A stretch of 48,413 nt of DNA from a virus: IMG/VR virus record IMGVR_UViG_3300036791_000256, positions 1 through 48,413 of that record. The stretch is one strand, 5' to 3'. Below are positions 12,233 through 42,398 of the stretch, piece by piece (position 1 is the stretch's first letter; each line of letters begins with the position of its first letter). The notes below the pieces were generated by a model. It saw nothing but the letters and a program-made list of their open reading frames with translations, made no database searches and had not been told where the DNA came from. Position numbers and translations under genes: made by a program.

Positions 12233-13006
12233 ATGCACAGAGCTACGCCAGCCAACTCTTCGTTTCGATCCTACGTGGCCGGAGGCGCGAGGGCCACCAT
12301 CCCTGGAGTAGACGACACTCAGCACATGCAAGAGAGCAACGGCAACATGATGGCCAACGAGGCCAGGAGCGCCATCGAGAGCCCACAGAACTACGGCTTC
12401 ACCAGTGTGGTGATGGACGCGATCAAGGACGCTCAAGGCAAGATAACTTCCAGCGCGGAGAGCTTCGTCAGCTTCATGGGCGGCAACCGAAGCTTTCCGG
12501 TGATGGGCAACATGGATGACCGGCGGCACCGGCTCATGAACCTGGCCAAGGGCGACGTGGCGATGTTCCGTACGGCTACCGACTTCCTCCAGATGCACTT
12601 CTCGAAGGATGGCGGGTTCATGACTGGTCCAAGAGACAAGACCGTTCGCCTGCAGTTGCTCGACAAGGATAGCGGCCAGCAGCAACAGACATCCCAGCAA
12701 TCTGGGAGCGCGAGAGACCCCAGCGGTGGAGGGAGCGGTGGTGGCCAATCATCCTCAGACCAACAGCAGAAGGGCCAGCAGGCCGTCTATCAGGACGGCC
12801 AGAAGAGTTTTCGGTTCATGGACGTGACCAAGGACCAGACCAGGATGAGCGGAACTGAGTGCCACACGATGCTGGCCGACGGCAAAACTTACCTCCACGT
12901 CAACTCAGACAAGAATGTCTACGTAGGCGGCAAGGCTGGAGATGGTTCGTTTGACTTTCTGATCACCCTCTCGGGGCCATGCAAGAACAGCAAGGGCAAG
13001 AAGTGA
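12233..13006 (+). CDS. Baseplate spike protein (Mu gp45-like)
   Basis: About 257 aa. ATG 12233 is preferred over 12227 because GAGGAG at 12221-12226 then has a normal 6-nt spacing. ESPQNYGFTSVVMDA and the OB-like N-terminus identify a Mu gp45 (gpV-type) spike. Residues ~150-185 are a Gln/Ser/Gly-rich linker. The C-terminal beta part (HTMLADGKTYLHVNSDKNVYVGG) would form the trimeric needle with a Cys and Lys-rich tip. The spike punctures the outer membrane. Confidence 0.88.
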   Translation: MHRATPANSSFRSYVAGGARATIPGVDDTQHMQESNGNMMANEARSAIESPQNYGFTSVVMDAIKDAQGKITSSAESFVSFMGGNRSFPVMGNMDDRRHRLMNLAKGDVAMFRTATDFLQMHFSKDGGFMTGPRDKTVRLQLLDKDSGQQQQTSQQSGSARDPSGGGSGGGQSSSDQQQKGQQAVYQDGQKSFRFMDVTKDQTRMSGTECHTMLADGKTYLHVNSDKNVYVGGKAGDGSFDFLITLSGPCKNSKGKK

Positions 13007-32377: not shown

Positions 32378-32431
32378 GGAGCTGGATTGCTCCGTTGAGC
32401 GCAGGATGACCTGCGCTCCGTCGGAATAATC
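32378..32431 (-). promoter_or_regulatory. Two-hairpin intergenic RNA element, copy D
   Basis: Leftward RNA order: 5' arm GATTATTCCG (32431-32422), 9-bp hairpin GAGCGCAGG (97/118 pair), 3' arm CGGAGCAATC, then GCTCC. The 3' arm can pair with the 5' arm or form GGAGC/GCTCC. Starts two bases below the TGA of the zinc-ribbon gene at 32433 and ends about 18 nt before the ATG at 32359. Confidence 0.75.
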
Positions 32432-32432
32432 C

Positions 32433-32621
32433 TCAGATCAACCACGTTCTGTTGTACTCATCGATCTCTTCCTCTGTAGCGAACTTTGTCGCATGATTAC
32501 ATTTTCCACAAGTCAGGACACCATACTCATGGTTACCATCCTCTGACCAATCAGTATAGGTCGAATAACAATATTTGCAATAATTTCGCCTTCGTTCATC
32601 CCACTTCAATCTTTTGGTCAT
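32433..32621 (-). CDS. Zinc-ribbon protein (four Cys)
   Basis: 62 aa from ATG 32621, overlapping the helicase stop as ATGA. Two Cys pairs, NYCKYCYS near residue 14 and LTCGKCNH near 37, form a zinc ribbon. An acidic C-terminus (ATEEEIDEY) follows. More AT-rich than its neighbours. Coupled to the SNF2 helicase, so it may act with it. Confidence 0.7.
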   Translation of the reverse strand: MTKRLKWDERRRNYCKYCYSTYTDWSEDGNHEYGVLTCGKCNHATKFATEEEIDEYNRTWLI

Positions 32622-33766
32622 ATCAGCCACTCCCGATAGTTGTCATTGGTGATCACTGCGGCGAGGTCCATCTTCTTTCGCAGAGCCCTGATCAACACCT
32701 CGTCCACGGAGCCCGGGACCACGAGGTCGACGTACGCCGTAGGCTCGGTCTTAGTCATGTCCTTGGCCCGCTCCTGGCTCTGGTCTCGGTGCTCGAGGTT
32801 GTTGGTGTTGCTGTAGTAGACCACGAGGTTGGCCACGTCCCACCTCCGGCCCCGCCCGCCGCTGCCGGCCGTGGCGACCATGAACCTGCACTCGGGGTCC
32901 GCCTTGAACCTCCGGTCCTCCTCCTCCCTTACGCTGGCGTTCCCGCCCCAGAATTGCGCCACTGCCTGCGGACTATATCTCTCCCGCAAGGCAGTGGAGA
33001 CCTTCCTCACGCTGTAGTCGTAGCTGCACCATATGATCGCCTTGCCGTCGTACTCCTCGAGGAGACTGAGAAGCGCCTCTGTACGCTTCTCAGGAACCTC
33101 TCGAAGTACTCCGTCGCTGTCCCTCGTGTAACCGCAGAGCAGCTGGTGGAGTCGGAGCATCTGGACGATGACCAATTGCGCAGTAATCAGTCCCCCGTCC
33201 TCCAGCTCTGCGAACGCGTTCTTCTTCAGGCTTTCGTAGGCCCGCTTCTGCGCATCCGTCAACTCGACATGCCTCACTTGCCAAGTTACTGGCAAGTGAA
33301 CGATGTCCTCCAGCCGGATCCGGAAGGAGTGGGGCTCGATCTTCCCATACAGCTCGGGGAGGTTCTTGAACCCCCTGACCATCGGGACCAGCCACCTGAC
33401 CCCGGGCATCTGGGTCATGACCACGTGGGCGTACTGGCGGCGAAAGAGCACGAAGCTGGTGTAGCCGAGTATGTCGTAGTCGAGGAAGCTGAACTGGCCG
33501 TAGAGGTCCAGTGGGTCGCGTGGCGTTGGAAGTCCGCATAAAATCCTCCGGTAGGAGGAGAGTGGCTTCAGCCTTCGTATGGCGAATTTTGTCCTGTTGG
33601 TGTCCGGTCCCTTGATGGTCGTGCTCTCATCAATGATGACCTCGGCCCGCCTCTGGCCTACAAACTGCTCCAGGGTATCTCTTACCCTCTCCACGGAGCT
33701 GGTGGCCTCGATGTTGGCGAGCAATAGTCTGGGTTTCCTGTCGTCGTCGCGGCTGGCTAAAAATTT
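32618..33766 (-). CDS. SNF2-type DNA helicase, C-terminal part (in -1 frame)
   Basis: This frame carries helicase motif II as EVIIDESTTIKG, motif III region GLPTPRDPLDLYGQFSFLD, a LPVTWQVRHVELTDAQKRAYESLK linker, and C-terminal motifs KAIIWCSYDYSV, FMVATAGSGGRGRRWD and RDQSQERAKDM. The ATG at 33808 in this frame is preceded by helicase sequence in another frame, so I treat the domain as the 3' part of one gene. Joined at the slippery site at 33760-33766 it gives about 484 aa, normal for phage SNF2 helicases. Three hairpins are embedded in its codons. Confidence 0.8.
   Translation of the reverse strand, partial: KFLASRDDDRKPRLLLANIEATSSVERVRDTLEQFVGQRRAEVIIDESTTIKGPDTNRTKFAIRRLKPLSSYRRILCGLPTPRDPLDLYGQFSFLDYDILGYTSFVLFRRQYAHVVMTQMPGVRWLVPMVRGFKNLPELYGKIEPHSFRIRLEDIVHLPVTWQVRHVELTDAQKRAYESLKKNAFAELEDGGLITAQLVIVQMLRLHQLLCGYTRDSDGVLREVPEKRTEALLSLLEEYDGKAIIWCSYDYSVRKVSTALRERYSPQAVAQFWGGNASVREEEDRRFKADPECRFMVATAGSGGRGRRWDVANLVVYYSNTNNLEHRDQSQERAKDMTKTEPTAYVDLVVPGSVDEVLIRALRKKMDLAAVITNDNYREWLI
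32959..32997 (-). repeat. Intragenic hairpin, 13-bp stem with one bulge
   Basis: Arms CCACTGCC+TGCGG and CCGCA+GGCAGTGG with a single bulged A and a 12-nt loop, inside SNF2 helicase codons (TALRERYSPQAVAQ). Confidence 0.7.
33066..33093 (-). repeat. Intragenic hairpin, 10-bp stem
   Basis: Arms CTGAGAAGCG and CGCTTCTCAG with an 8-nt loop, in the helicase codons for PEKRTEALLSL. Confidence 0.7.
33274..33299 (-). repeat. Intragenic hairpin, 10-bp stem
   Basis: Arms TCACTTGCCA and TGGCAAGTGA with loop AGTTAC, in the helicase codons for VHLPVTWQVRH. Confidence 0.75.
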
Positions 33767-34071
33767 CGCAGGGCCTTGTCGTGGCGAGCGCCTCCCTTCG
33801 TCTCCCATATGTGAACAAGGGTACGTTCACATAAGTCAAGACTGGCGTGCTTCTCGAACTCATCCCTCCAGGTGCGGTAGACCCCGGCCGGGGCGAGCAC
33901 CAAGAGGTCCTTGACCTCGCCGGCCATTTCCATCTCCCCGAAGTCGTCGATCGCGGTCTTGGTCTTGCCGGTCCGCATGGCCATGAGCAGGGCGAACGCC
34001 TGCCGTCCCCTCATCTTGGCCTCCGCGGTCTCTTGGTGGGGGTGGCAGGCCAGGGCTGGGAGATAGCTCAT
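33757..34071 (-). CDS. SNF2-type DNA helicase, N-terminal part (zero frame)
   Basis: 104 aa from ATG 34071 (ATGA overlap with the winged-helix gene; GGAGGG upstream). SYLPALACHPHQETAEAKMRGRQAFALLMAMRTGKTK holds the Q-like HPHQ start and Walker A (MRTGKT), then DLLVLAPAGVYRTWRDEFEK (motif Ia). It ends at TAG 33757 directly after the slippery A AAU UUU. Alone it lacks motifs II-VI and could not be a helicase; the rest is in the -1 frame. ATP-driven DNA translocation or remodelling is the expected role of the fused product. Confidence 0.8.
   Translation of the reverse strand: MSYLPALACHPHQETAEAKMRGRQAFALLMAMRTGKTKTAIDDFGEMEMAGEVKDLLVLAPAGVYRTWRDEFEKHASLDLCERTLVHIWETKGGARHDKALRNF
33760..33766 (-). 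other. Candidate -1 frameshift site, A AAU UUU, in SNF2 helicase
   Basis: In leftward mRNA the zero-frame codons are CGA AAU UUU UAG. A AAU UUU fits X XXY YYZ in phase, and the stop follows at once; the -1 frame reads AAA UUU UUA GCC into the rest of the helicase. A one-base indel in the T5 run would give the same appearance. Confidence 0.6.
33808..33833 (-). repeat. Intragenic hairpin, 9-bp stem
   Basis: Arms TATGTGAAC and GTTCACATA with an 8-nt loop, about 45-70 nt upstream of the helicase slippery site, in codons for CERTLVHI that use A/T-ending triplets. Confidence 0.7.
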
Positions 34072-34361
34072 CGCCTGGCCCTCCGCTTCTCCACCCAAAT
34101 TTCCAGGGGGATGGGGCCCATCCGCCTGCCCTTTCTGATCCGAAAGTTCTCCCTGTTGTGGTCGACCTTTCGCATCAGCTGGGAGAGCGTGGCCAGCACG
34201 ATCCCCCTGGAGTTGAATGGGACCTTCTCGCCCTCGTACCGCCTGACCGCCAGCTCCTCCGTCGAGATCGGTGTCCCGTCCCTCGGGATCAGGTCCAGTA
34301 TCTTTTGCTCCGAGTTGGAGTACTTGATCTTGTGGTTGTCTTTCGACATTTCTTCCTCCAT
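34068..34361 (-). CDS. Hypothetical protein, winged-helix-like
   Basis: 97 aa; ATG 34361 with GGGAG upstream (an ATG at 34349 is an alternative). YSNSEQKILDLIPRDGTPISTEELAVRRYEG, then FNSRGIVLATLSQLMRKVDHNRENFRIRKG has the layout of a winged helix with basic wing. Immediately upstream of the helicase with a 4-nt overlap. Confidence 0.6.
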   Translation of the reverse strand: MEEEMSKDNHKIKYSNSEQKILDLIPRDGTPISTEELAVRRYEGEKVPFNSRGIVLATLSQLMRKVDHNRENFRIRKGRRMGPIPLEIWVEKRRARR

Positions 34362-34362
34362 G

Positions 34363-34869
34363 TCACTCTCCCGCTACCAGCTGGCCGAGCAGGGCCATGT
34401 TTCTCTGGACTATTCCGGCTATGACCAGGAAGTGGACCCGAAGGCGCCACTTCCCGTAGTACTCAAACGTGTCCTCAGTGAACAGCTTGGTGAAGGTCTC
34501 CTCGCACCACAGGCTCTTGTGCTCGAGGCTCTGGGCCGCGAGCACGGTGTTATAGTAGGGGATCGAGAAGTTCATCACGCCCCGATTGGGGATGAGCACC
34601 CGCTCGACCTCCCTCAGGAAGGCCACCGCCTCGTCGCCGGTCAGGTGCTCGAGGAAGTGGTAGGCATGGATCGTGGCCACGCTCCCATCCTCCGCGGGGA
34701 TGGGGTCTCTCGGCACTCTCCAATTAGGCGGGCCGAGAGCCACCGCCCCCGGTGCCACGTGCCTGCCTGATGCCCCGCAGTCGAAGCTCGGGCCCTCGCA
34801 GGCCAGGAGCTCGGGCAGGTGGCGCTTCATCCCGAGCGCGAACAGCTTCTGGAATGGGTCGTAGTTCAC
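34363..34869 (-). CDS. SAM-dependent methyltransferase
   Basis: 168 aa from GTG 34869, which overlaps the upstream stop (GTGA). SFDCGASGRHVAPGAVALG occupies the SAM-binding motif I position, though it is less glycine-rich than usual. SVATIHAYHFLEHLTGDEAVAFLREVERVLIPNRGVMNFSIPYYN matches the Methyltransf_11 post-motif region (H-x-x-E-H-L ... L-x-E-x-x-R-V-L-x-P-x-G). Substrate unknown. Methylation of DNA, a base precursor or a sugar are all possible. Confidence 0.75.
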   Translation of the reverse strand: MNYDPFQKLFALGMKRHLPELLACEGPSFDCGASGRHVAPGAVALGPPNWRVPRDPIPAEDGSVATIHAYHFLEHLTGDEAVAFLREVERVLIPNRGVMNFSIPYYNTVLAAQSLEHKSLWCEETFTKLFTEDTFEYYGKWRLRVHFLVIAGIVQRNMALLGQLVAGE

Positions 34870-35165
34870 GTCGCCACCTCCCTCTTTGCAAACCTGGGCA
34901 TGAAGCAGTCGCCCAGCTTGAAGGTGTGGCGGTCCAGGTGGCGCTCGATGCCCAGCACGTCGTGGGTGAAGTTGAAGTCGTCCGCCAGCTCGAGGTCCTC
35001 GAGCCTCAGCGAGCAACCACCCAGGATGCAGGCGACCAGATCCATCTCTACGTCCCCAGGATTTCGGTCCGGGAACAGGAACACCGCCCGCTTCACGATC
35101 CTGTCAATGGAGTCGAACTCCAGCTGGGTGATTGGTAGTCTCCTCCTGCCTCTCGTCCTTCTCAT
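34866..35165 (-). CDS. Hypothetical protein
   Basis: 99 aa. Arg-rich start (RRTRGRRRLPITQLEFDSIDRIVKRAVFLFPDRNPGDVEMDLVACILGG) followed by LRLEDLELADDFNFTHDVLGIERHLDR. Mixed alpha/beta; not recognised. Precedes the methyltransferase with a GTGA overlap, so the two may work together. Confidence 0.6.
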   Translation of the reverse strand: MRRTRGRRRLPITQLEFDSIDRIVKRAVFLFPDRNPGDVEMDLVACILGGCSLRLEDLELADDFNFTHDVLGIERHLDRHTFKLGDCFMPRFAKREVAT

Positions 35166-35193
35166 TCTGTCTCTCCTGTCTGGATACAGTGAT

Positions 35194-35215
35194 GGCCCCA
35201 GCTCTCGCTGGGGCC
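35194..35215. promoter_or_regulatory. Intergenic hairpin, 9-bp GC stem
   Basis: Arms GGCCCCAGC and GCTGGGGCC with loop TCTC in the 90-nt gap between 35165 and 35256. On the + side it is followed by TTTGG, on the - side by no U-run, so it is at most a weak terminator; a leader structure for the gene at 35165 is equally possible. Confidence 0.5.
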
Positions 35216-35255
35216 TTTGGTTATCAAGTCGTGCGGTAGTTCGCTCGTGGTTGCA

Positions 35256-36131
35256 TCACCTCCCGCTCTTAAGCATGACGGACTTGTCCTCGCCCTTGCC
35301 GTCGTACTCCAATCTGTAGGGCAACTTGTGGTCATCGATCCTCATGCCGATGCCCATGCAAACGGTCTGAAGTTTGACCATGCTGGCCGCGTCCCCCGGC
35401 TTCCCGTCGTACACGTGGCGGTAGAGCTCGGCGAGCGGGACCTTCTTGTTCTTCTTTCCGTGGAGGTAGACCACCGCCTTGCCGCGGAGCGTGCCGCCCT
35501 TGTCGCAGAACTCGGCCTCGACTCCGGAGAGCTGGGAGTTGGTCTTCGGGGCCGCAGCGACCTTCGTCTTCTTGACGATCGCCTTAGTCGCCTTCTTCTT
35601 TGCAGACGTCTTCGCCATCTTCTTCTTCCTCTCTGGTTTGGCTGGGGCCGCAGGCGGTTCCTGTGGCTCACCAGCTTCAGGTGCTGCTAATTCTCCAGAC
35701 GCGATCTTCTCCCTCTGGGCGGCGATCGCATTGACCAGGGCCTCGCAGCGCTTTGCCCCTGTCTCAGTGTCCCGAAAGCGTGTAGAGATCGGCTTTGCAG
35801 TCAGTCCTATCTCTACCGCCTCCGCGACGAGCTCGTTGTACTTCTCGACGTAGTTCACTTTCGCTTCAGGTGATGTCGATTGTACGCTCTCATCGCTCAT
35901 GCGGCTCTCCTTGGTTTTGGTTCCAGCCCGCGTTCCATCATACTCCCGTCCGCGCAAGCGTCCAGGACTTTTTCTTTCACTCACTCTCTCCCAGTCTGCG
36001 TTCATCAGGCACTGGACCAGCCCGACCATGTGGGCTGGTCCCCTAGTGATCTTGACCAGGCTCTGCTCCGGCCCCTCCTCCAGGAGGCGGCCTGCCCACC
36101 TGCCCTTGAAGATTGATACCTCGCTGCTCAC
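35256..36131 (-). CDS. Lys/Ala-rich basic protein with conserved C-terminal domain
   Basis: Up to 291 aa from GTG 36131 (GTGA overlap). A strong AAGGAG before ATG 35900 suggests a main start there, giving 214 aa. From 35900: YVEKYNELVAEAVEIG..TAKPISTRF, then a Pro/Ala linker, a histone-H1-like KKKMAKTSAKKKATKAIVKKTK segment, and a folded C-terminus (LRGKAVVYLHGKKNKKVPLAELYRHVY). The extra N-terminal ~77 codons look coding for the first 50 only. A DNA-compacting or DNA-binding role is suggested by the basic tail. A 10-bp hairpin (near 36013-36040) lies in the N-terminal extension. Confidence 0.65.
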   Translation of the reverse strand: MSSEVSIFKGRWAGRLLEEGPEQSLVKITRGPAHMVGLVQCLMNADWERVSERKSPGRLRGREYDGTRAGTKTKESRMSDESVQSTSPEAKVNYVEKYNELVAEAVEIGLTAKPISTRFRDTETGAKRCEALVNAIAAQREKIASGELAAPEAGEPQEPPAAPAKPERKKKMAKTSAKKKATKAIVKKTKVAAAPKTNSQLSGVEAEFCDKGGTLRGKAVVYLHGKKNKKVPLAELYRHVYDGKPGDAASMVKLQTVCMGIGMRIDDHKLPYRLEYDGKGEDKSVMLKSGR

Positions 36132-36319
36132 TTGGGTCTCCTTGCTGCGGTCCCTACGAGGCGACCGCGCTCATCGTACACCTTGGTCTGGCCGCCCGAG
36201 TAGGTGGTGGCCGTACCCACACTCCGCCCATTCTTGTCATAGAACCTGACGGTCGGAAAGTCTGAGCCGTGGGCCGGGGAGGCCCACGTCACTACTGCTA
36301 CCAGCAAGAACCATCTCAT
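36128..36319 (-). CDS. Small secreted protein with short repeat
   Basis: 63 aa from ATG 36319, overlapping the zinc-finger gene's stop. Signal peptide RWFLLVAVVTWASPAHG with likely cleavage after AHG. The mature part has two copies of a short motif: VRFYDKNGRSVGTA and TKVYDERGRLVGTA. A periplasmic location is expected. Such repeats recur in small secreted proteins of alphaproteobacteria; function unknown. Confidence 0.65.
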   Translation of the reverse strand: MRWFLLVAVVTWASPAHGSDFPTVRFYDKNGRSVGTATTYSGGQTKVYDERGRLVGTAARRPK

Positions 36320-36537
36320 TCCAGCTCTCCCTCGTCGCAGGCCTCGTACGCGTCTGGCGCCGGGATGATCGGCGGCAGTCCGTTCTTGATCCTCAAGGGA
36401 TTGGCCCGCTCCACGCAGTACGCGCAGATCGGCTCCCTGGTCCCCTTGATGGTTATGCTGGGCACCCGCTTTGGGTTGAAGCCGAACACCCTGCCGCACC
36501 CGAAGCAGTGACCCATCGCCACTACGTAGCCTGTCAT
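36316..36537 (-). CDS. Zinc-finger-like protein
   Basis: 73 aa. HCFGCGRVFGFNPKRVPSITIKG followed by PICAYCVERANPLRIKNGLPPI has two C-x2-C pairs with a conserved-looking F-N-P-x-R-V-P-S between them. I have seen this pattern in uncharacterised phage proteins. The C-terminus DAYEACDEGELE is acidic. 4-nt overlaps on both sides. Confidence 0.7.
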   Translation of the reverse strand: MTGYVVAMGHCFGCGRVFGFNPKRVPSITIKGTREPICAYCVERANPLRIKNGLPPIIPAPDAYEACDEGELE

Positions 36538-36737
36538 CTGATCCTACTCCCAAACAGAGTTGCGTGTTCAAACAGCATTTGGTTCTCAACCTGCTCGACG
36601 GCCAGGTAGACCAGCTCCCCGCAGGACGAGGGGATGAACAGGTCCCCCCTGTCCTTCAGGAAGCCATTGAGCAACGCCTGGCTCACGTCCCTCTTGGACA
36701 TCTTGCTGTCGATCTCGAAGACGACCCTGTATCTCAT
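36534..36737 (-). CDS. Small hypothetical protein
   Basis: 67 aa. RYRVVFEIDSKMSKRDVSQALLNGFLKDRGDLFIPSSCGELVYLAVEQ: strand-helix-strand. ATG 36737 overlaps a TGA in the frame that is -1 to the HTH gene's frame, while the HTH gene as read runs 152 nt into this gene (see findings). Not recognised. Confidence 0.6.
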   Translation of the reverse strand: MRYRVVFEIDSKMSKRDVSQALLNGFLKDRGDLFIPSSCGELVYLAVEQVENQMLFEHATLFGSRIR

Positions 36738-37227
36738 GCGGCCTCTCCTCCTCTCTGACGATCACGACCTCTTGCCTGCGGCCGCGGTTCTTGGCCCACA
36801 GGCTCACTCCCTTCCTCGAGCACGAGACCTGGAGACTGCCCAGGGTGGTCCCAAGCCGCTCCGCGATCTGCTCCCTGCCCAAGCCCTCCGCGACCCAGGC
36901 CTGGATCTTGGCCAGGTTCTCCGCGGAGAATTTGGTCTTGCAGTGGCCCTTCTTGATCTTGACCACCTTGACCTTGGGCGGGGGCGGCGGCAGCGCCTTC
37001 TTGAGCACCTGCCCGTTCTTCTTCAAGATCGGGACACTGGGCGAGCGCCGCTCCGGCGCTGGGTGCGGAGCCAGGAAGGAGGAGGGCGAGAGTGGAGGAC
37101 TGGCCTCCACCCGGCTGATCATCGACCGTATCTCTGCGGCCGACGCCTCCAGCTCCCTTAGTCTGTGTTCCAGCTGGTCGACCTTGCTCTTCAGCAGGGC
37201 CGACTGGTTGTGTTTGGTAGCCATCAT
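36586..37227 (-). CDS. GcrA-like HTH protein with Pro-rich linker
   Basis: Up to 213 aa from ATG 37227. N-terminal coiled coil (LLKSKVDQLEHRLRELEASAAEIRS), then a Pro/Ser linker (ASPPLSPSSFLAPHPAPERR). The HTH domain at ~105-145 reads FSAENLAKIQAWVAEGLGREQIAERLGTTLGSLQ, followed by CSRKGVSL. This is close to GcrA/transposase-like HTH domains. The last ~50 residues overlap the next gene in another frame and look non-conserved, so the true end may be near 36734. Confidence 0.65.
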   Translation of the reverse strand: MMATKHNQSALLKSKVDQLEHRLRELEASAAEIRSMISRVEASPPLSPSSFLAPHPAPERRSPSVPILKKNGQVLKKALPPPPPKVKVVKIKKGHCKTKFSAENLAKIQAWVAEGLGREQIAERLGTTLGSLQVSCSRKGVSLWAKNRGRRQEVVIVREEERPHEIQGRLRDRQQDVQEGREPGVAQWLPEGQGGPVHPLVLRGAGLPGRRAG

Positions 37228-37257
37228 GTCTGTCGTTCCTTTTTGCTTGCTTAGGTG

Positions 37258-37455
37258 TTACTTGCACGGTTTGGCGTACGGGACCGGAGGACCGATCACG
37301 CGAGAGGGACAAGGCAGGTTGGGCCTGAGCCTGTCTGCCTTGACCGCACGGTTGACCTCTGCTACTTGGTCGTCGCGGTCGACGATGACCCGAGACAGCG
37401 CGAACGCCGCAAAGGCCATGGAGATGACTACGAACAGCAGCACGATCTTCACCAT
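37258..37455 (-). CDS. Small secreted or membrane-anchored protein
   Basis: 65 aa. N-terminal hydrophobic segment VKIVLLFVVISMAFAAFALS (anchor or signal peptide), then DRDDQVAEVNRAVKADRLRPNLPCPSRVIGPPVPYAKPC. Two Cys may form a disulphide in the periplasm. One base from the stop of the preceding protease gene; probably co-expressed with it. Confidence 0.6.
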   Translation of the reverse strand: MVKIVLLFVVISMAFAAFALSRVIVDRDDQVAEVNRAVKADRLRPNLPCPSRVIGPPVPYAKPCK

Positions 37456-37456
37456 G

Positions 37457-38128
37457 TCACAGAGGCTTCTTGGAGGTCAGCTGCTCGATGAACTCCTTCG
37501 GCAGGGTGGCCGCCGTCCCCTCCTCGAACTTGGAGGTGGTCTGCTCCTCGACTTTTATTATAGTCACCTCGATCCCAAAACCCTTGGCCAAGTCCTTGTT
37601 CAGCCAGTAGGCGTCCCTCGGGTCAGCGGTCAGGAAGAAGTCTGCGGCCGGCTTGGGCACGCCTATCTCCCTGTAATAGGACTTCATCAGTCCGATGGTC
37701 TTTGGGTCTACGTGCGGCCGGCCGCGCCTGTCCTTGTAGTACGGTTGGTGGAAGCCGACGTGGGCGGTCTGGGCAGTGTACTTCTTGGAGCCGGCGAGCC
37801 ACATCGAGGCGCAGACGCTGACGCAGTACGCGTCCGCATCGACGACTGTTTCGAAGCCGAACTTGTGGATCATGAGACCCATGATCAGACCGCTGACCAA
37901 CAGGCCTCCGTCGCTGTCTAGATAGACGATTGCAACTTTGATCTGGTTGTCCTTGACCACCTTCTCGAACGTCATGAAGTCTTTCTGCTGGATGTTTCCG
38001 ACGATCTTGATCTTGTAGCAGTCCTTCGGATTACAGCCGTCTCGCTCGGCCGTGATGGTCGCGGCCGGGGCCGCAGTGGTTATCAAGAGCGCGGCGATGG
38101 CCGCACCCACAGTGGTTCGTAGTGACAT
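37457..38128 (-). CDS. Periplasmic ClpP-fold serine protease-like protein
   Basis: 223 aa. Signal peptide 1-23 (VGAAIAALLITTAAPAA). The ClpP/crotonase-type core reads IVYLDSDGGLLVSGLIMGLMI, then DADAYCVSVCASMWLAGS with the candidate nucleophile S104 between two Cys, and AHVGFHQPYY with the candidate general base H127. This is the pattern of secreted ClpP-like proteins (COG3904 type). Expected in the periplasm; substrate unknown. Unusual in a phage early operon. Structured element A precedes it. Confidence 0.8.
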   Translation of the reverse strand: MSLRTTVGAAIAALLITTAAPAATITAERDGCNPKDCYKIKIVGNIQQKDFMTFEKVVKDNQIKVAIVYLDSDGGLLVSGLIMGLMIHKFGFETVVDADAYCVSVCASMWLAGSKKYTAQTAHVGFHQPYYKDRRGRPHVDPKTIGLMKSYYREIGVPKPAADFFLTADPRDAYWLNKDLAKGFGIEVTIIKVEEQTTSKFEEGTAATLPKEFIEQLTSKKPL

Positions 38129-38155
38129 GGGATAGTCCTTTTTGCTTGCTTATGT

Positions 38156-38214
38156 GATGCGGAATTGCATCGCACTGCACTCCCCTCGCAGGGGAGTGCA
38201 GGCCCGATGCAATC
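38156..38214 (-). promoter_or_regulatory. Two-hairpin intergenic RNA element, copy A
   Basis: Leftward RNA: 5' arm GATTGCATCG (38214-38205, overlapping the stop of the upstream gene), 12-bp hairpin with arm CTGCACTCCCCT, 3' arm CGATGCAAT, then GCATC. The 5' and 3' arms pair over 9 bp, or the 3' arm forms GATGC/GCATC. Leader AAGCAAGCAAAAAGGACTA follows, then the protease ATG at 38128. Confidence 0.8.
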
Positions 38215-38389
38215 AGGCGGCCTCTTGTAGGTTGGCCGTCTCCTCTGTTTTCGATGCGTCGATGACCTTGCCGAGGATTTCAAGTATCACTGGCTCATCG
38301 ACCTCGGCGCAGTAATTCAATAATTTGCCGAGCGCCTCAATGATCAGATAGGCCTGACCCTTGCAGACTTTTATTTCAACTTCTTCCAT
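38213..38389 (-). CDS. Small hypothetical protein (58 aa)
   Basis: Below common cut-offs. EEVEIKVCKGQAYLIIEALGKLLNYCAEVDEPVILEILGKVIDA, helical, with an acidic C-terminus. ATG 38389 with GAGGAG a few bases upstream and a CCCAAACCAGGAG leader further out. The stop lies inside the 5' arm of structured element A. Confidence 0.65.
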   Translation of the reverse strand: MEEVEIKVCKGQAYLIIEALGKLLNYCAEVDEPVILEILGKVIDASKTEETANLQEAA

Positions 38390-38423
38390 TAGCTCCTCAC
38401 CTCCTCTCCTGGTTTGGGATTTA

Positions 38424-38627
38424 TCACAGCCCGGAGTACTCCCCAGGTTGGATCAGCTTGGGCTCCGCCTCCCAGGCCTCCAGCTCCAGGAGCCTGGCCT
38501 CGAGCTCTCTCAGCCGGGCGATCTGTCCCGTGAGCGCCCAGCTGTGCAGTTGCTTGAGCCTGGCCTCGGCCAGCTCGATGGCCTCGACCAGTTGCTCCCT
38601 GGTTACAGTCGTCGTCCTGTCGTCCAT
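38424..38627 (-). CDS. Small coiled-coil protein
   Basis: 67 aa. TREQLVEAIELAEARLKQLHSWALTGQIARLRELEARLLELEAW is an uninterrupted amphipathic helix; the end is Pro-rich (EPKLIQPGEY). Not recognised. Confidence 0.6.
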   Translation of the reverse strand: MDDRTTTVTREQLVEAIELAEARLKQLHSWALTGQIARLRELEARLLELEAWEAEPKLIQPGEYSGL

Positions 38628-38642
38628 AGTCCCAGTCCCTTT

Positions 38643-38834
38643 CTACGAGTGTCCCTCTTCTGCGCTGAAGATCATGGCCATCCTCAAGACCACGCTCTTC
38701 AAGAGCGGTGATGCCTGCTTGTCCGAGAGCAGCATGTCGATCATGGATGCCATCTGTTCTCGGGTACTCATTTCTCGAAAGTGCTCATAGGCCGCCTCTG
38801 CGAGCCACTGCTCTCCTCTGTCGTTGATGCTCAT
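38643..38834 (-). CDS. Small hypothetical protein
   Basis: 63 aa. GEQWLAEAAYEHFREMSTREQMASMIDMLLSDKQASPLLKSVVLRMAMI, helical. ATGA overlap with the upstream gene (38831). Not recognised. Confidence 0.6.
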   Translation of the reverse strand: MSINDRGEQWLAEAAYEHFREMSTREQMASMIDMLLSDKQASPLLKSVVLRMAMIFSAEEGHS

Positions 38835-39028
38835 TTGAACCCCACCACCTTGATCTTAGGAAACCAATCCTCAGACTTGGCGGCCGAGGCCCTGGCCCTG
38901 GACGCGGCCAGGTCGGCCTCCCTCTCCGTGGTGAACCTGTGTGCCCTCCGGGTGGAGTCGGACCACTTGCGGTCCTCCTCCATCCAGAACCGGCCGTGCT
39001 GGTCGTCCAGCCTGACCATCCAATGCAC
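38831..39028 (-). CDS. Small hypothetical protein
   Basis: 65 aa from GTG 39028 with GAGGAG 7 nt upstream. WMVRLDDQHGRFWMEEDRKWSDSTRRAHRFTTEREADLAASRAR: a small beta start then a charged helix. Members like this are usual in phage early operons; function unknown. Confidence 0.6.
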   Translation of the reverse strand: MHWMVRLDDQHGRFWMEEDRKWSDSTRRAHRFTTEREADLAASRARASAAKSEDWFPKIKVVGFK

Positions 39029-39029
39029 G

Positions 39030-39230
39030 CTACTTCTCCTCTACGACGCTGAGCCTGATCGCCTGCCACGCCCCGTCGGGCATCCCCTCCTTGGTGATGT
39101 ACACACTCCTGATTGGAGCCGATCTATCTACTGAGTTGTAGACGTACGTGCCCGGGGTCGTCTTGCCTAGTGCCATCTTGACCGAGATGGTCTTGTCGTT
39201 GCCGTCGTTGTTGGTGGTCGCCTTGGCCAT
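39030..39230 (-). CDS. Small conserved phage protein
   Basis: 66 aa. TISVKMALGKTTPGTYVYNSVDRSAPIRSVYITKEGMPDGAWQAIRLSV resembles the small K-x-T-x-G-T-x-x-Y ... YI-x-K beta proteins seen across phages, whose role is unknown. Preceded by element E. Confidence 0.65.
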   Translation of the reverse strand: MAKATTNNDGNDKTISVKMALGKTTPGTYVYNSVDRSAPIRSVYITKEGMPDGAWQAIRLSVVEEK

Positions 39231-39249
39231 GCCTCAATCTCCTGCTGCT

Positions 39250-39314
39250 GATGCGGAAGTGCATCGTTAGACGGCCAGGCCCCTAGCTCTCTGGCCGTCC
39301 CGTCGATGAACTAC
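39250..39314 (-). promoter_or_regulatory. Two-hairpin intergenic RNA element, copy E
   Basis: 5' arm TAGTTCATCG (39313-39304, containing the TAG stop of the upstream gene), 9-bp hairpin with arm GACGGCCAG and a 12-nt loop, 3' arm CGATGCACTTC, then GCATC. Same alternative pairings as copy A. Followed by AGCAGCAGGAGATTGAGGC and the ATG at 39230. Confidence 0.7.
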
Positions 39315-39520
39315 TCGACCTTGACTATCCTGCCGTTTCTCATCGTTATGATGCCGAACCACTCCCTGCCCAGTCCCGTTATGAGCGGGCGGTTGGCAAC
39401 GGTGAGCCGGCCATCTTCTCGATACTCAGCTCCGAACAGGCTCGTCTCTATGTACTTCAGCTTCTGGCCGACGGCCTCCTTGGCCGCCTGCTTCGTCGGG
39501 TACTTCGCTATCAGGGTCAC
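39311..39520 (-). CDS. Small hypothetical protein
   Basis: 69 aa. LIAKYPTKQAAKEAVGQKLKYIETSLFGAEYREDGRLTVANRPLITGLGREWFGIITMRNGRIVKVE: helix then a beta meander ending in GREWFG-ITMRNG. The stop codon is part of element E's 5' arm. Not recognised. Confidence 0.6.
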   Translation of the reverse strand: MTLIAKYPTKQAAKEAVGQKLKYIETSLFGAEYREDGRLTVANRPLITGLGREWFGIITMRNGRIVKVE

Positions 39521-39810
39521 GTTACTTCTCCTCTCTCTTCATCGTCGAACCAGAACTCAAACTCAACCCTCTCCCCTGGCTTGAACTGGGAGACGCAGAG
39601 CTCGATGAGCTCATCGGAGACCCTGCCGCTCAGGCGCGACCTGATGTCCTCCTCTCCCAGGAGCGGGTCTCCATCTAGACTAGCCAGGGCTCGCTGCCCT
39701 GCGTCCCACTCCGCCTTGCCTATCTGCGGGAACGGGTTGCATGTGAGACTGAACTTGTGCCAGGGGTTCTCGTTGGTACCGTTCAGTCTGACCTTTATCG
39801 TGTGCTTCAC
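39517..39810 (-). CDS. Hypothetical protein
   Basis: 97 aa. TIKVRLNGTNENPWHKFSLTCNPFPQIGKAEWDAGQRALASL, with a C-terminal acidic beta segment (ERVEFEFWFDDEE). Looks like a small beta-barrel. 4-nt overlaps with both neighbours. Not recognised. Confidence 0.6.
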   Translation of the reverse strand: MKHTIKVRLNGTNENPWHKFSLTCNPFPQIGKAEWDAGQRALASLDGDPLLGEEDIRSRLSGRVSDELIELCVSQFKPGERVEFEFWFDDEERGEVT

Positions 39811-39992
39811 CTCTTCTTCTCCTCTACGATCTTGGTGTGGCGGACGACGGGCGTCCAGTTGGGATCAGCCTCGACCGCCTTCTGCTCAGCCTCGGCCCCG
39901 GTCCAGGCGCGAACCCGGACCTTCTTGGTCCGGCTGGGTTGGCGGGGGAAGATCGACGCGACTAGCGTGACCTCCCACAGCTTCTCTCTCAC
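39807..39992 (-). CDS. Small basic hypothetical protein
   Basis: 61 aa. REKLWEVTLVASIFPRQPSRTKKVRVRAWTGAEAEQKAVEADPNWTPVVRHTK: a small beta-alpha-beta unit of the kind with a W-x-x-T-V-V pattern. Coupled on both sides. Function unknown. Confidence 0.6.
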   Translation of the reverse strand: MREKLWEVTLVASIFPRQPSRTKKVRVRAWTGAEAEQKAVEADPNWTPVVRHTKIVEEKKR

Positions 39993-40744
39993 TTCGTCCT
40001 CCTCCTTCCTTTAGGACCCACGTGGACCGCCGTCGTGACCGGAGGTCCCCTGAGGTCCAGTCTCAGTTTGTCAACCCTCTCATCGAACCCCTTCTTCACT
40101 TGCTCCTTGAATAGGTCCACGATGTCTGCCTTGACCAACTCCCTCTCGCTGTCGCCGGACGCCCTCGCCCTCTTGAGGATTTCCTTTGCTAGTTGATCTA
40201 CGTCTGAGATGAAAGTTTCGACTAGTTCTGAGAGCCTGTCCCACTCGTTGACTGGGGACCTCCTTGCCTTGGGCTCGTCCTCTCCATTTCTCTCGTTCTT
40301 CGAGGGGGATGGATCCGACTTACCCTCCGCCTTCATCTTCAGCGCGTCCTTGAGTTGGGTGCCAGGGTTGATCTCCCCGCTGCCAAGCTTCTCTGCGAGC
40401 AGTCCCGGATCAAACTGGGAGAGCTCATAAAGTACCGTATAGGCCGCAGGAAGTTGGTGCTTCGAGGAGTACTTGATCAGCACGGCGCATTGCCCGATGG
40501 ACATTAGCTTGGAAATCGTGGACTGCGGCATACCTAGTTGCTCCACGATCGCCTTCTGGCCCTCCTCCTCAAACTCTGCGTAGGTCTTGGCAATCCTCAC
40601 GCCAGTCTCAATGATGCTCTCTACACTCTGGCGATAGGCGATCCCAACCCAGCGGACCCAGTACTCAAGAGGGTCCTTACTCGTAGGTTCATTGGTCACT
40701 GGAGGGATGATCATGACCCTTCCCTTAGTTATCCGTTTATTCAT
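39989..40744 (-). CDS. ParB/KorB-like HTH DNA-binding protein (putative)
   Basis: 251 aa. PLEYWVRWVGIAYRQSVESIIETGVRIAKTYAEF is a helical start. EEEGQKAIVEQLGMPQSTISKLMSIGQCAVLI holds an HTH (G-M-P-Q-S-T-I-S-K-L recognition helix), then LPAAYTVLYELSQFDPGLLAEKLGSGEINPGTQ, typical of ParB/KorB-style or phage replication-initiation HTH proteins. The C-terminal half is charged with a coiled coil and a basic end. Likely binds phage DNA to regulate transcription or replication. Confidence 0.75.
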   Translation of the reverse strand: MNKRITKGRVMIIPPVTNEPTSKDPLEYWVRWVGIAYRQSVESIIETGVRIAKTYAEFEEEGQKAIVEQLGMPQSTISKLMSIGQCAVLIKYSSKHQLPAAYTVLYELSQFDPGLLAEKLGSGEINPGTQLKDALKMKAEGKSDPSPSKNERNGEDEPKARRSPVNEWDRLSELVETFISDVDQLAKEILKRARASGDSERELVKADIVDLFKEQVKKGFDERVDKLRLDLRGPPVTTAVHVGPKGRRRTK

Positions 40745-40839
40745 CTGTATGAATATCCTTTCTTGCTCTCGATCTCATCCAGGCTGATCGCTTGGATGCG
40801 GGCCAGGACCTCCAGGATGATTGCTCGCTGCGACTTCAT
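40741..40839 (-). CDS. Micro-protein (32 aa)
   Basis: KSQRAIILEVLARIQAISLDEIESKKGYSYR. Very short, but both ends form 4-nt ATGA overlaps: with the membrane-protein stop upstream and with the HTH gene start downstream. That is the usual junction style here and supports translation. Function unknown; translation may mainly couple its neighbours. Confidence 0.6.
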   Translation of the reverse strand: MKSQRAIILEVLARIQAISLDEIESKKGYSYR

Positions 40840-41036
40840 TGGGTCAGCTCCCTCGCTACTGCGTCGTAGCCCAGGTGCGAGGCCCTGGCATGGGCCATCT
40901 CAACCAAGATGGCCGTGTTGCGGGCCGAGGCCTCGGTGGCAGTCGCTATCCGCATGGCAGTCTTGATCCCGAAGTTGATCAGCCTGCCGAGCCAGATCAC
41001 GTAGATGATGGCCAGAATGAAACTTATGAGTGCCAT
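40836..41036 (-). CDS. Small membrane protein
   Basis: 66 aa. One N-terminal membrane segment (LISFILAIIYVIWLGRLINFGIKTA), then a helical soluble part (IATATEASARNTAILVEMAHARASHL). Follows element B. Not recognised. Confidence 0.65.
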   Translation of the reverse strand: MALISFILAIIYVIWLGRLINFGIKTAMRIATATEASARNTAILVEMAHARASHLGYDAVARELTQ

Positions 41037-41063
41037 AGTCGTAGTCCTTTTTGCTTGCTTAGT

Positions 41064-41122
41064 GGAGCGTGATTGCTCCGTGCTGCACTGGGCCTCGCGC
41101 CCAGTGCAGTGTCGGAATAATC
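41064..41122 (-). promoter_or_regulatory. Two-hairpin intergenic RNA element, copy B
   Basis: 5' arm GATTATTCCG (41122-41113), 11-bp hairpin with arm CTGCACTGGGC, 3' arm CGGAGCAATC, then GCTCC. Leader AAGCAAGCAAAAAGGACTA follows, then the ATG at 41036. The 5' arm is identical to copy D; the hairpin stem differs, so the common part is not just a recent duplication. Confidence 0.8.
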
Positions 41123-41171
41123 CATAAGTCGACCTCCCTTTAGGTCACAGCAGGGAAGGCAGGGATCCGAC

Positions 41172-41468
41172 TTACTTGCCGCCGCCTACGAACTTGTAGA
41201 CGTACTTGCCCTTGGTGCCCTCCTGCTTGATCTTCAGGCCGGCCCGCTTCGCAACTGGCTTCAGGTTGCTCAGCATGGAGCCGGAGGTGTAGACGCCCAG
41301 CTCATCTCGGAACTGGGAGGTGGTCACGCCCTTCTTCAGCGCCGCGATGATCTTCGCATCACGCGCTGGGTTGGCGACCCTCGTGCGGGTGGCCACGGCC
41401 TTCTTGGCAGTGACTTTGCCCTTGCGACGGGCAGAGGTCTTAGCGGACTTCTTTGCAGATTTAGCCAT
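41172..41468 (-). CDS. Lys/Ala-rich basic protein with winged-helix-like end
   Basis: 98 aa. The first ~35 residues (AKSAKKSAKTSARRKGKVTAKKAVATRTR) are histone-H1-like. The rest (DAKIIAALKKGVTTSQFRDELGVYTSGSMLSNLKPVAKRAGLKIKQEGTKGKYVY) looks like a winged helix. A DNA-binding or nucleoid role is inferred. Flanked by elements C (upstream) and B (downstream), the only gene with a copy on both sides. Confidence 0.7.
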   Translation of the reverse strand: MAKSAKKSAKTSARRKGKVTAKKAVATRTRVANPARDAKIIAALKKGVTTSQFRDELGVYTSGSMLSNLKPVAKRAGLKIKQEGTKGKYVYKFVGGGK

Positions 41469-41491
41469 AACAATTCTCCTGGTTTGGGTTT

Positions 41492-41546
41492 GGAGCGGAA
41501 TGCTCCGTTGTGCGCTGGGGTCAGCCAGCGCACCGTCGGAAAATTC
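41492..41546 (-). promoter_or_regulatory. Two-hairpin intergenic RNA element, copy C
   Basis: 5' arm GAATTTTCCG (41546-41537, two bases below the TAA of the gene at 41549), 9-bp hairpin with arm GTGCGCTGG, 3' arm CGGAGCATTC, then GCTCC. The 5' arm differs from B and D, and the 3' arm changes with it (AATC to ATTC). Leader AAACCCAAACCAGGAG follows. Confidence 0.8.
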
Positions 41547-41548
41547 GC

Positions 41549-41797
41549 TTACTTCAAGAGCTCGCGTGCATCCGGCAAGTTAGACGAGTTGCGATAGATG
41601 CGAGCGTCGCTGCTCTCCTCTAGTGCGGCCAGCAGGTTGGCAACCAGGCCACCCTTCTTCTCCAGGTCCCTGTAGGAGCGAGGGAAGGCGTAGGCGTAGG
41701 CCTCCAGGGCCTCGGATAGATCACCCCTGTCTCCTGCGTCAGCGTTGCTGATCAGTTGGGCCAGGGCCTTCGTTAGTTCATTGCGTTGGGTAGTCAT
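41549..41797 (-). CDS. Small hypothetical protein
   Basis: 82 aa from ATG 41797 (overlapping the upstream TGA); an in-frame longer start runs into that gene. RNELTKALAQLISNADAGDRGDLSEALEAYAYAFPRSYRDLEKKGGLVANLLAALEESS, helical. Not recognised. Confidence 0.6.
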   Translation of the reverse strand: MTTQRNELTKALAQLISNADAGDRGDLSEALEAYAYAFPRSYRDLEKKGGLVANLLAALEESSDARIYRNSSNLPDARELLK

Positions 41798-42075
41798 CAC
41801 ATACTCCAGTAGGTCTCGGTTGAGGGATCGCAGCACGCCGGGGTGTTCTTGGCGATGCGGACCAGCTTGCCGGACTGCAAGTTGGTCACGATCTTCGTCT
41901 TCTTCTCATTGGCCAGATACTCGACCATGGGATCTGTCTTGGTCGAGACCTCGTAGCCTCTGCGAGTGGCGGCCTTGACCGCACCCCGGAATGTTTTCCA
42001 CTCTCCCTTCTTGCCGGATAACCGGTAGAGGCCGGTGAGGGTAGAGACGTAGACTTCAACTTTGGGGATGTTCAT
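41797..42075 (-). CDS. Hypothetical protein
   Basis: 92 aa. IPKVEVYVSTLTGLYRLSGKKGEWKTFRGAVKAATRRGYEV, then EKKTKIVTNLQSGKLVRIAKNTPACC. Small alpha/beta protein with two adjacent Cys. 4-nt overlap upstream. Not recognised. Confidence 0.6.
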   Translation of the reverse strand: MNIPKVEVYVSTLTGLYRLSGKKGEWKTFRGAVKAATRRGYEVSTKTDPMVEYLANEKKTKIVTNLQSGKLVRIAKNTPACCDPSTETYWSM

Positions 42076-42149
42076 GTTGAACCTTTCAGTGATGCGAGCA
42101 GGAAGAGAAAGATGAGGGCGAGGATGAGCAGGAAGAGGGTCGTGCTCAT
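42072..42149 (-). CDS. Single-TM micro-protein (25 aa)
   Basis: A start, a TT dipeptide and then almost pure hydrophobic sequence (LFLLILALIFLFLLASL) with a short end KGST. ATGA overlaps on both sides argue for translation. A separate ribosome site is not evident, so it relies on coupling. Membrane micro-protein of unknown role. Confidence 0.5.
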   Translation of the reverse strand: MSTTLFLLILALIFLFLLASLKGST

Positions 42150-42214
42150 CGCCGGTGGGTGCCCTGCATGAACGGAAGGAGCAGGGCGTCGAGCAGTCGG
42201 TTGACGTATTTCAT
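42146..42214 (-). CDS. Micro-protein (22 aa)
   Basis: KYVNRLLDALLLPFMQGTHRR after the start Met, from ATG 42214. GGAGGAGG lies 7 nt upstream and TAATG / ATGA junctions tie it to both neighbours. Amphipathic helix. Possibly only a coupling ORF. Confidence 0.45.
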   Translation of the reverse strand: MKYVNRLLDALLLPFMQGTHRR

Positions 42215-42306
42215 TAGTCTGCCTCCTCCTGTTCGTCGATCCCCTCGAGGATGACGCCCTCTGCAAGCAGTTCGAGGATCAGGTCGAGGTCGAGTTCGGT
42301 AGCCAT
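42214..42306 (-). CDS. Acidic micro-protein (30 aa)
   Basis: ATELDLDLILELLAEGVILEGIDEQEEAD, a very acidic helix. ATG 42306 with AAGGA upstream; the stop overlaps the next start (TAATG). First gene after the promoter-leader region and element F, so it is expected to be the leading cistron of this operon. Confidence 0.6.
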   Translation of the reverse strand: MATELDLDLILELLAEGVILEGIDEQEEAD

Positions 42307-42332
42307 GGGGTATTCCTTTTTTCTTGCTTATT

Positions 42333-42398
42333 GATGCAGAATTGCATCGCGCTACCCTCGCTCCCTTAATGGAGGGAGGAGGGCAGTCGATGAAATTC
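42333..42398 (-). promoter_or_regulatory. Two-hairpin intergenic RNA element, copy F
   Basis: 5' arm GAATTTCATCG (42398-42388), central hairpin (arms CTGCCCTC and GAGGGTAG with one G-U pair, inner 6 bp, one bulge), 3' arm CGATGCAATTC, then GCATC. The arms pair at 10 of 11 positions. Followed by AAGCAAGAAAAAAGGAATA and ATG 42306. The only copy that lies in an operon leader rather than between two genes. Confidence 0.8.

Follow-up and report, generated by a model that had tools for sequence, protein, structure and literature searches.

Why do six gene gaps of a single phage genome carry leaders of one common layout, each of which can be folded in two mutually exclusive ways? The genome is the IMG/VR virus record IMGVR_UViG_3300036791_000256, analysed here over positions 1 to 48,413 (hereafter the window, 48,413 nucleotides (nt) in length). 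Its initial annotation, made from the sequence alone, had placed six copies of a two-hairpin element on the minus strand, had noted that the arms change together between copies, and had taken this as a sign of a selected RNA structure. The element, a cis-acting RNA set immediately ahead of the ribosome-binding site of single genes, is about 55-70 nt long: a 5' arm (strand 1) pairs with a 3' arm (strand 2) to form the stem P1, which encloses a hairpin of variable sequence, P2, while a 5-nt segment further downstream (strand 3) pairs with the same 3' arm to form P3, so that strands 1 and 3 are competitors for strand 2. In one fold P1 caps P2, and the two make up a single long, imperfect hairpin with a small internal loop; in the other P3 stands as a short hairpin whose loop mostly has 5-7 nt. 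We report that both alternative folds are kept by evolution and are selected in RNA.

Conservation of two exclusive folds

Pattern and covariance-model searches yielded 63 distinct copies, spread over 17 viral contigs and about 15 chromosomes of Bradyrhizobium. In their alignment the pairing is complete in P3 (315 of 315 cells) and nearly so in P1 (95.3%) and P2 (98.4%). P3 occurs in four types (GATGC/GCATC, GGAGC/GCTCC, GAAGC/GCTTC and GGTGC/GCACC). Two of its pairs are variable, with two pair types each, and all four combinations are represented; the 5' arm co-varies with the type. Within the window the joint replacements of CCG/CGG by ATCG/CGAT, and of AATC by ATTC together with its partner, are indeed seen. 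The outer P1 pair 5-75 (alignment columns) is U-A in 28 copies, G-C in 26, A-U in 4 and C-G in 1, and at the closing pair 13-68 G-C, A-U, C-G and U-A all occur.

Covariation was ranked by a corrected G-test over the 1,624 column pairs of the 63-copy alignment. The 14 top-ranked pairs all belong to P1, P2 or P3 or are transitive pairs between the 5' arm and the 3' strand of P3, and among them are 10-71 and 11-70 (P1), 71-84 and 70-85 (P3), and the transitive pairs 10-84 and 11-85. Such a triangle of covarying pairs is the expected pattern where one strand has two alternative partners. The remaining column pairs share the same phylogeny and therefore serve as a control, and the slid-partner and shuffled controls agree with the ranking. 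For some inner arm letters the pattern searches imposed a pre-selection on the copies that they found; it does not apply to the outer P1 pairs, to P2 or to any copy found by the model only. On the sense strand of the 63 copies G-U is found 91 times and A-C only 10 times, an asymmetry that a DNA hairpin, on whichever strand it is read, would not show; the structure is therefore selected in RNA, not in DNA. The inner and outer parts of P1 are split by an N.C position that is usually a mismatch, as the C is retained for pairing in P3, and the junctions comprise about 2-3 nt per side, of which a part (J1 'AC') is conserved.

One strand is thus conserved for two partners, with covariation to both, and the element is a bistable RNA. 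The initial annotation had made its case depend on the presence of the motif in related phages and on covariation among further homologues: the motif is found in related as well as in unrelated phages, and the covariation is well above that of all other column pairs.

Six copies in the window

The copies were also recovered with a structural descriptor that uses no sequence. It requires five pairs in the P3 hairpin, a 5' arm of ten bases complementary to the ten bases that hold the 5' strand and the loop of P3, and a P2 hairpin in between. The six copies score 51, 47, 45, 43, 43 and 42, while the next matches in the window score 41, 41 and 39. In 150 dinucleotide-preserving shuffles of the window 0.08 matches per genome are found at a score of at least 42, so the six copies are far above chance. 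Two covariance models were built, R1 from 13 copies and R2 from 45 distinct copies; P3 base pairs are absent from both models, which do contain sequence preferences in the P3 region.

All six copies lie in intergenic gaps and are oriented with transcription (all coordinates in this section refer to the minus strand). Each presents, in order, the 5' arm, a GC-rich hairpin of unrelated sequence, the 3' arm, the short back-pairing segment, a ribosome-binding site and a start, the last two being placed 18-27 nt downstream of the copy. Copy D (32378..32431; R1: 60.0 bits, R2: 57.7 bits) has its 5' arm at 32431-32422, P2 at 32418-32397, the 3' arm at 32394-32385 and a GGAGC/GCTCC P3 hairpin at 32393-32378, and precedes a gene for 276 residues (32359-31532). 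Copy A (38156..38214; R1: 58.6 bits), with the 5' arm at 38214-38205, P2 at 38201-38175, the 3' arm at 38172-38163 and a GATGC/GCATC P3 hairpin at 38171-38156, is followed by the gene of a 223-residue protein with a signal peptide-like start (38128-37457). GATGC/GCATC is also the type of copies E (39250..39313; R1: 59.4 bits; downstream gene 39230-39030, 66 residues) and F (42333..42397; R1: 54.8 bits; followed by a small gene of 30 residues), while copies B (41064..41122; R1: 65.2 bits; downstream gene 41036-40836, 66 residues) and C (41492..41546; R1: 59.8 bits; P3 loop of 5 nt; downstream gene 41468-41172, 98 residues) are of the GGAGC/GCTCC type.

The proposal that the 5' arm starts within a few bases of the upstream stop codon holds for copies A, C, D and E (0-5 nt; copy E begins with TAG, with which the gene upstream stops) and fails for F (16 nt) and B (52 nt). 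The 5' arm of copy B coincides with a short ATG frame; a leader-peptide reading of it was rejected, since the frame is not preserved in the close relative IMGVR_UViG_3300036828_000413 (G001), which was identified by a DNA-polymerase search (polymerase 90% identical) and holds six copies of its own. P2 of copy F is long, comprising a lower stem and an upper stem with one bulge, and the upper stem CTCCCT/AGGGAG corresponds to CTGCGT/ACGCAG in the G001 ortholog. A separate strong hairpin (GGCCCCAGCGAGAGCTGGGGCC) in another gene gap of the window (35194-35215) is not a copy of the element.

Related copies in phages and Bradyrhizobium

Clear copies in contigs of unrelated phages were revealed by pattern scans of IMG/VR, and R1 and R2 extended the set; a single genome has as many as eight copies (G030, where seven of the eight are clearly on the coding strand). 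The covariance model R2 matched 18 of 266 Bradyrhizobium genomes at E<=1e-3, two of which (G405 and G412) look false, and 2 of 385 alphaproteobacterial genomes taken as an even draw; the genus name rests on G039, the genome of Bradyrhizobium jicamae SZCCT0215. Over the 3 kb tested, contig G004 matches a Bradyrhizobium chromosome with 100% identity, and the spacing of its three copies is the same there, which identifies it as a Bradyrhizobium prophage. We infer that the phage of the window also infects Bradyrhizobium or a relative.

The first pattern scan of GTDB gave 26 matches that were judged by eye to be due to chance, as they lacked P2 or a ribosome-binding site, whereas the true Bradyrhizobium copies were recovered by the covariance-model search; several strict-pattern matches, L003-L006 and L131-L135, likewise do not resemble true copies. 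A BLAST search with one copy against named phages gave weak matches only, no convincing copy was found in ten named phage genomes, and two protein scans of IMG/VR gave back the query's own contig alone.

Two further loci deserve mention. The hairpin at L139:12454 (plus strand, IMGVR_UViG_3300037069_001724) has the three-strand layout with very different arms (GCTAAC / GTTAGC / CTAACC) and is possibly a far relative or a look-alike. In G275:C47:28982-31782 four copies (L323, L338, L341 and L342) with the arms TTTCG/CGAAGC/GCTTC are found inside 3 kb, and several of them are followed by an extra GGGC/GCCC hairpin ahead of the ribosome-binding site.

Genomic context and exchange of gene cassettes

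A start with a Shine-Dalgarno (SD)-like sequence lies 10-59 nt downstream on the same strand in 69 of the 73 aligned matches, and the element stays ahead of differing genes in phages and chromosomes. Copy A (38214-38156) is 92% identical to positions 12269-12324 of G001, where both neighbouring genes differ, which suggests gene exchange with borders at the element. In Bradyrhizobium, L318 and L326 share 94% identity over 601 bp (main match), with sharp borders and unrelated flanks. The element thus travels with gene cassettes, and the wording of the initial annotation, a selected structure "rather than a mobile repeat", was too strong in its second part, while the first part, the RNA structure, stands.

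Units of about 600 bp, composed of the element, a gene for a small secreted protein and a terminator hairpin, were observed at L318, L326, L330-L332 and L334; their surroundings are unrelated, their borders are sharp and they share no conserved promoter, as though a cassette without a promoter were moving. The cassette protein is presumably SnoaL-like; its 75-residue part that was tested gave no Pfam match. Many genes downstream of copies, e.g. 38128-37457 in the window, begin with signal-peptide-like sequences, an apparent excess.

No terminator or promoter match was found at the six copies, and the possibility of an intrinsic terminator or attenuator was rejected, as there is no T run and the six copies are absent from terminator-like sites. 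Elsewhere in the window a helicase gene (34098-32618, minus strand) lies in two frames that meet near 33757-33764 at CGA AAT TTT TAG, i.e. the slippery heptamer A AAT TTT followed by a 0-frame stop; since the split and the site are both conserved in G001 (L096, about 17040), a programmed -1 frameshift is likely.

Balance of the folds and possible function

For 19 copies with the flank to the start codon the difference between the P1 and P3 folds is -0.9 +/- 2.3 kcal/mol, whereas a perfectly complementary 5' arm would give -8.1 +/- 2.2 kcal/mol; for the element alone (63 copies) it is -2.2 +/- 2.7 kcal/mol. The balance is kept by the usual N.C mismatch and frequent U.G in P1. The ribosome-binding site lies outside both folds, and its mean openness, calculated in silico for the same 19 copies, is equal in effect between the P1 fold (0.63) and the P3 fold (0.61). 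A simple occlusion switch, i.e. the translation switch that had been considered initially, is therefore not supported: an SD-sequestering switch or an RNA thermometer would pair the site in one of its states and release it in the other. We also rejected base-pairing between the P3 loop (ACTTCC) and the downstream SD, since by eye it is not conserved (the loop of copy B is AATCAC).

The explanation we favour, with a probability of roughly 0.37, is processing of the RNase III type followed by refolding of the 3' arm into a protective 5' hairpin. P1 and P2 would form first during transcription, because strand 3 is made last. A host double-strand ribonuclease, most likely RNase III, would then cut the 3' side of the P1/P2 internal loop; a host enzyme would fit, as we found no protein common to all carrier phages. 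The upstream cleavage fragment would retain P2 near its 3' end, and the freed 3' arm would pair with strand 3 instead, which would place P3 at 0-3 nt from the new 5' end, a position in which it could protect the downstream mRNA from decay. The element would then act as a portable insulator that provides the gene behind it with its own stable 5' end in any transcript. The processing model gives each of the two folds a use, and it fits an element that is kept before many genes. Three observations weigh against it. RNase III needs little sequence, whereas the arms occur in only four P3 types, suggestive of common descent or of recognition that goes beyond structure; the internal loop, with about 2-3 nt per side, is below the 4/5 loop of the phage T7 substrate R1.1; and P3 is already the more stable fold in several copies, so that cutting would be unneeded to reach it.

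The limited repertoire of arms makes a switch read by a ligand or a protein the serious, main rival, although we still consider it rather unlikely. A host protein or another ligand would bind one fold, e.g. P3, and shift downstream expression. Balanced folds are typical of ligand-driven switches, the same four P3 types alone recur across distant phages and chromosomes, with at least two found together in one genome, and a part of the junction (J1 'AC') is conserved. On the other hand, the genes downstream of the copies have no common function or pathway, no shared phage-encoded partner was found, and the change of fold leaves the exposure of the ribosome-binding site unaltered in silico.

The 5' arm of most phage copies begins 0-6 nt after the upstream stop codon or shares its first bases with it, and a terminating ribosome would therefore cover this arm; the 3' arm would be freed, P3 would form and initiation downstream would change. 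We regard such translational coupling as improbable: compact phage genomes would by themselves bring the stop close, the distance in copy B is as large as 52 nt, and the openness of the ribosome-binding site is the same in both folds. Moreover, no upstream reading frame ends near the chromosomal copies, so that this mechanism does not hold for the family as a whole. A transcription-level element (antitermination or anti-Rho, put-like), which would keep RNA polymerase moving over gene gaps, has a similarly low probability. Paired hairpins in intercistronic positions of an early operon, in many copies of one direction, are in its favour, yet the copies are not followed by terminators, they also precede apparently isolated chromosomal genes, and the conservation of two exclusive folds is left unexplained.

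Conserved arms around a variable stem recall attC in outline, and the exchange of neighbouring genes around a conserved element, together with the sharp borders of the 600-bp unit of element, gene and terminator in Bradyrhizobium, could point to a DNA site for recombination or a mobile-element end (attC-like or REP-like) with hairpins of folded single-stranded DNA. This is very improbable, as the excess of G-U over A-C shows selection on the sense-strand RNA, where an attC-type site would be selected as single-stranded DNA, a start codon with its ribosome-binding site follows nearly every copy, and P3, which is paired throughout, has no role in such sites. Finally, the unrelated sequences of the P2 stems and the recurrence of the arms might suggest chance GC-rich hairpins or copies of one recent repeat, a reading to which the shuffles, the slid-partner controls and the covariation ranks leave a negligible probability.

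If processing and refolding do occur, the element may, as a tentative extension, represent a new natural class of 5'-leader insulators in phages and Bradyrhizobium: a bistable RNA that would be processed, refold and cap the downstream mRNA, and that would make promoterless cassettes expressible anywhere in a transcript. Independently of its function, this RNA family had not been described before, and the covariation evidence for its two competing folds is unusually clear, both among copies of one genome and among those of unrelated phages, prophages and chromosomes. It offers a ready system for asking why evolution retains two near-equal RNA folds, and it points to a layer of post-transcriptional control that Bradyrhizobium, a nitrogen-fixing symbiont of importance, shares with its phages. 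Experiments, or the design of RNA insulators, can draw on its many natural variants.

Comparison with known systems

Among processed RNAs a close parallel is provided by the RNase III processing signals in the early mRNA of T7. The reference substrate of the enzyme, R1.1, is a hairpin of 60 nt between two early genes with an asymmetric internal loop (4/5 nt), and cutting at the in vivo site yields pieces of 47 nt and 13 nt (PMC6121014). Like these signals, the element occurs in several intercistronic copies in one early operon, ahead of the next gene, and is an imperfect hairpin of about 60 nt with a lower stem, an internal loop and an upper stem; the 13-nt 3' piece of R1.1 corresponds to its 3' arm. 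Unlike them, it has a third, downstream strand as a second partner for the lower stem's 3' strand, a conserved second fold, arms conserved in sequence and an internal loop smaller than 4/5 nt, and its cleavage is only predicted. A 5'-terminal stem-loop can stabilise mRNA, according to the citation of Emory et al. 1992 in PMC7509114. P3 would take the role of such ompA-type stabilisers after processing, but unlike them it lies inside a polycistronic transcript and can form only in place of P1.

In layout, the closest described phage feature is the ESAS of cluster K mycobacteriophages, in which 17-bp arms are tied to the 13-bp SAS GGGATAGGAGCCC at the start codon, and for which the authors found little support for an mRNA hairpin (PMC3203893). 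Both features occur in many copies per phage genome, with inverted arms and a variable spacer, directly before the starts of unrelated genes. They differ in sequence and in arm length, the element containing neither the 17-bp repeat nor the SAS, the hosts do not overlap, and covariation for two exclusive folds is found in the element.

Structured leaders have been found by comparison in Alphaproteobacteria (Corbino et al. 2005, PMC1273637). ROSE-type thermometers and SD-sequestering leaders of Rhizobiales resemble the element as short hairpin leaders before a gene in the same bacteria; in the element, by contrast, the ribosome-binding site is outside both folds, and there is no ROSE match. The alphaproteobacterial motifs of the 2005 study are reportedly SAM-II, serC, speF, suhB and ybhL, and their Rfam families do not match the element; the one weak suhB match, in L011 (24.9 bits, gathering score 41), lies away from it. 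More generally, Rfam 15 gave no match in the window at the gathering score and none at the elements at permissive E-values, in agreement with the initial annotation, which knew of no named family of this form. We class the element as a new RNA family whose general kind, the bistable cis-acting RNA, is known, and which stands outside every named family.

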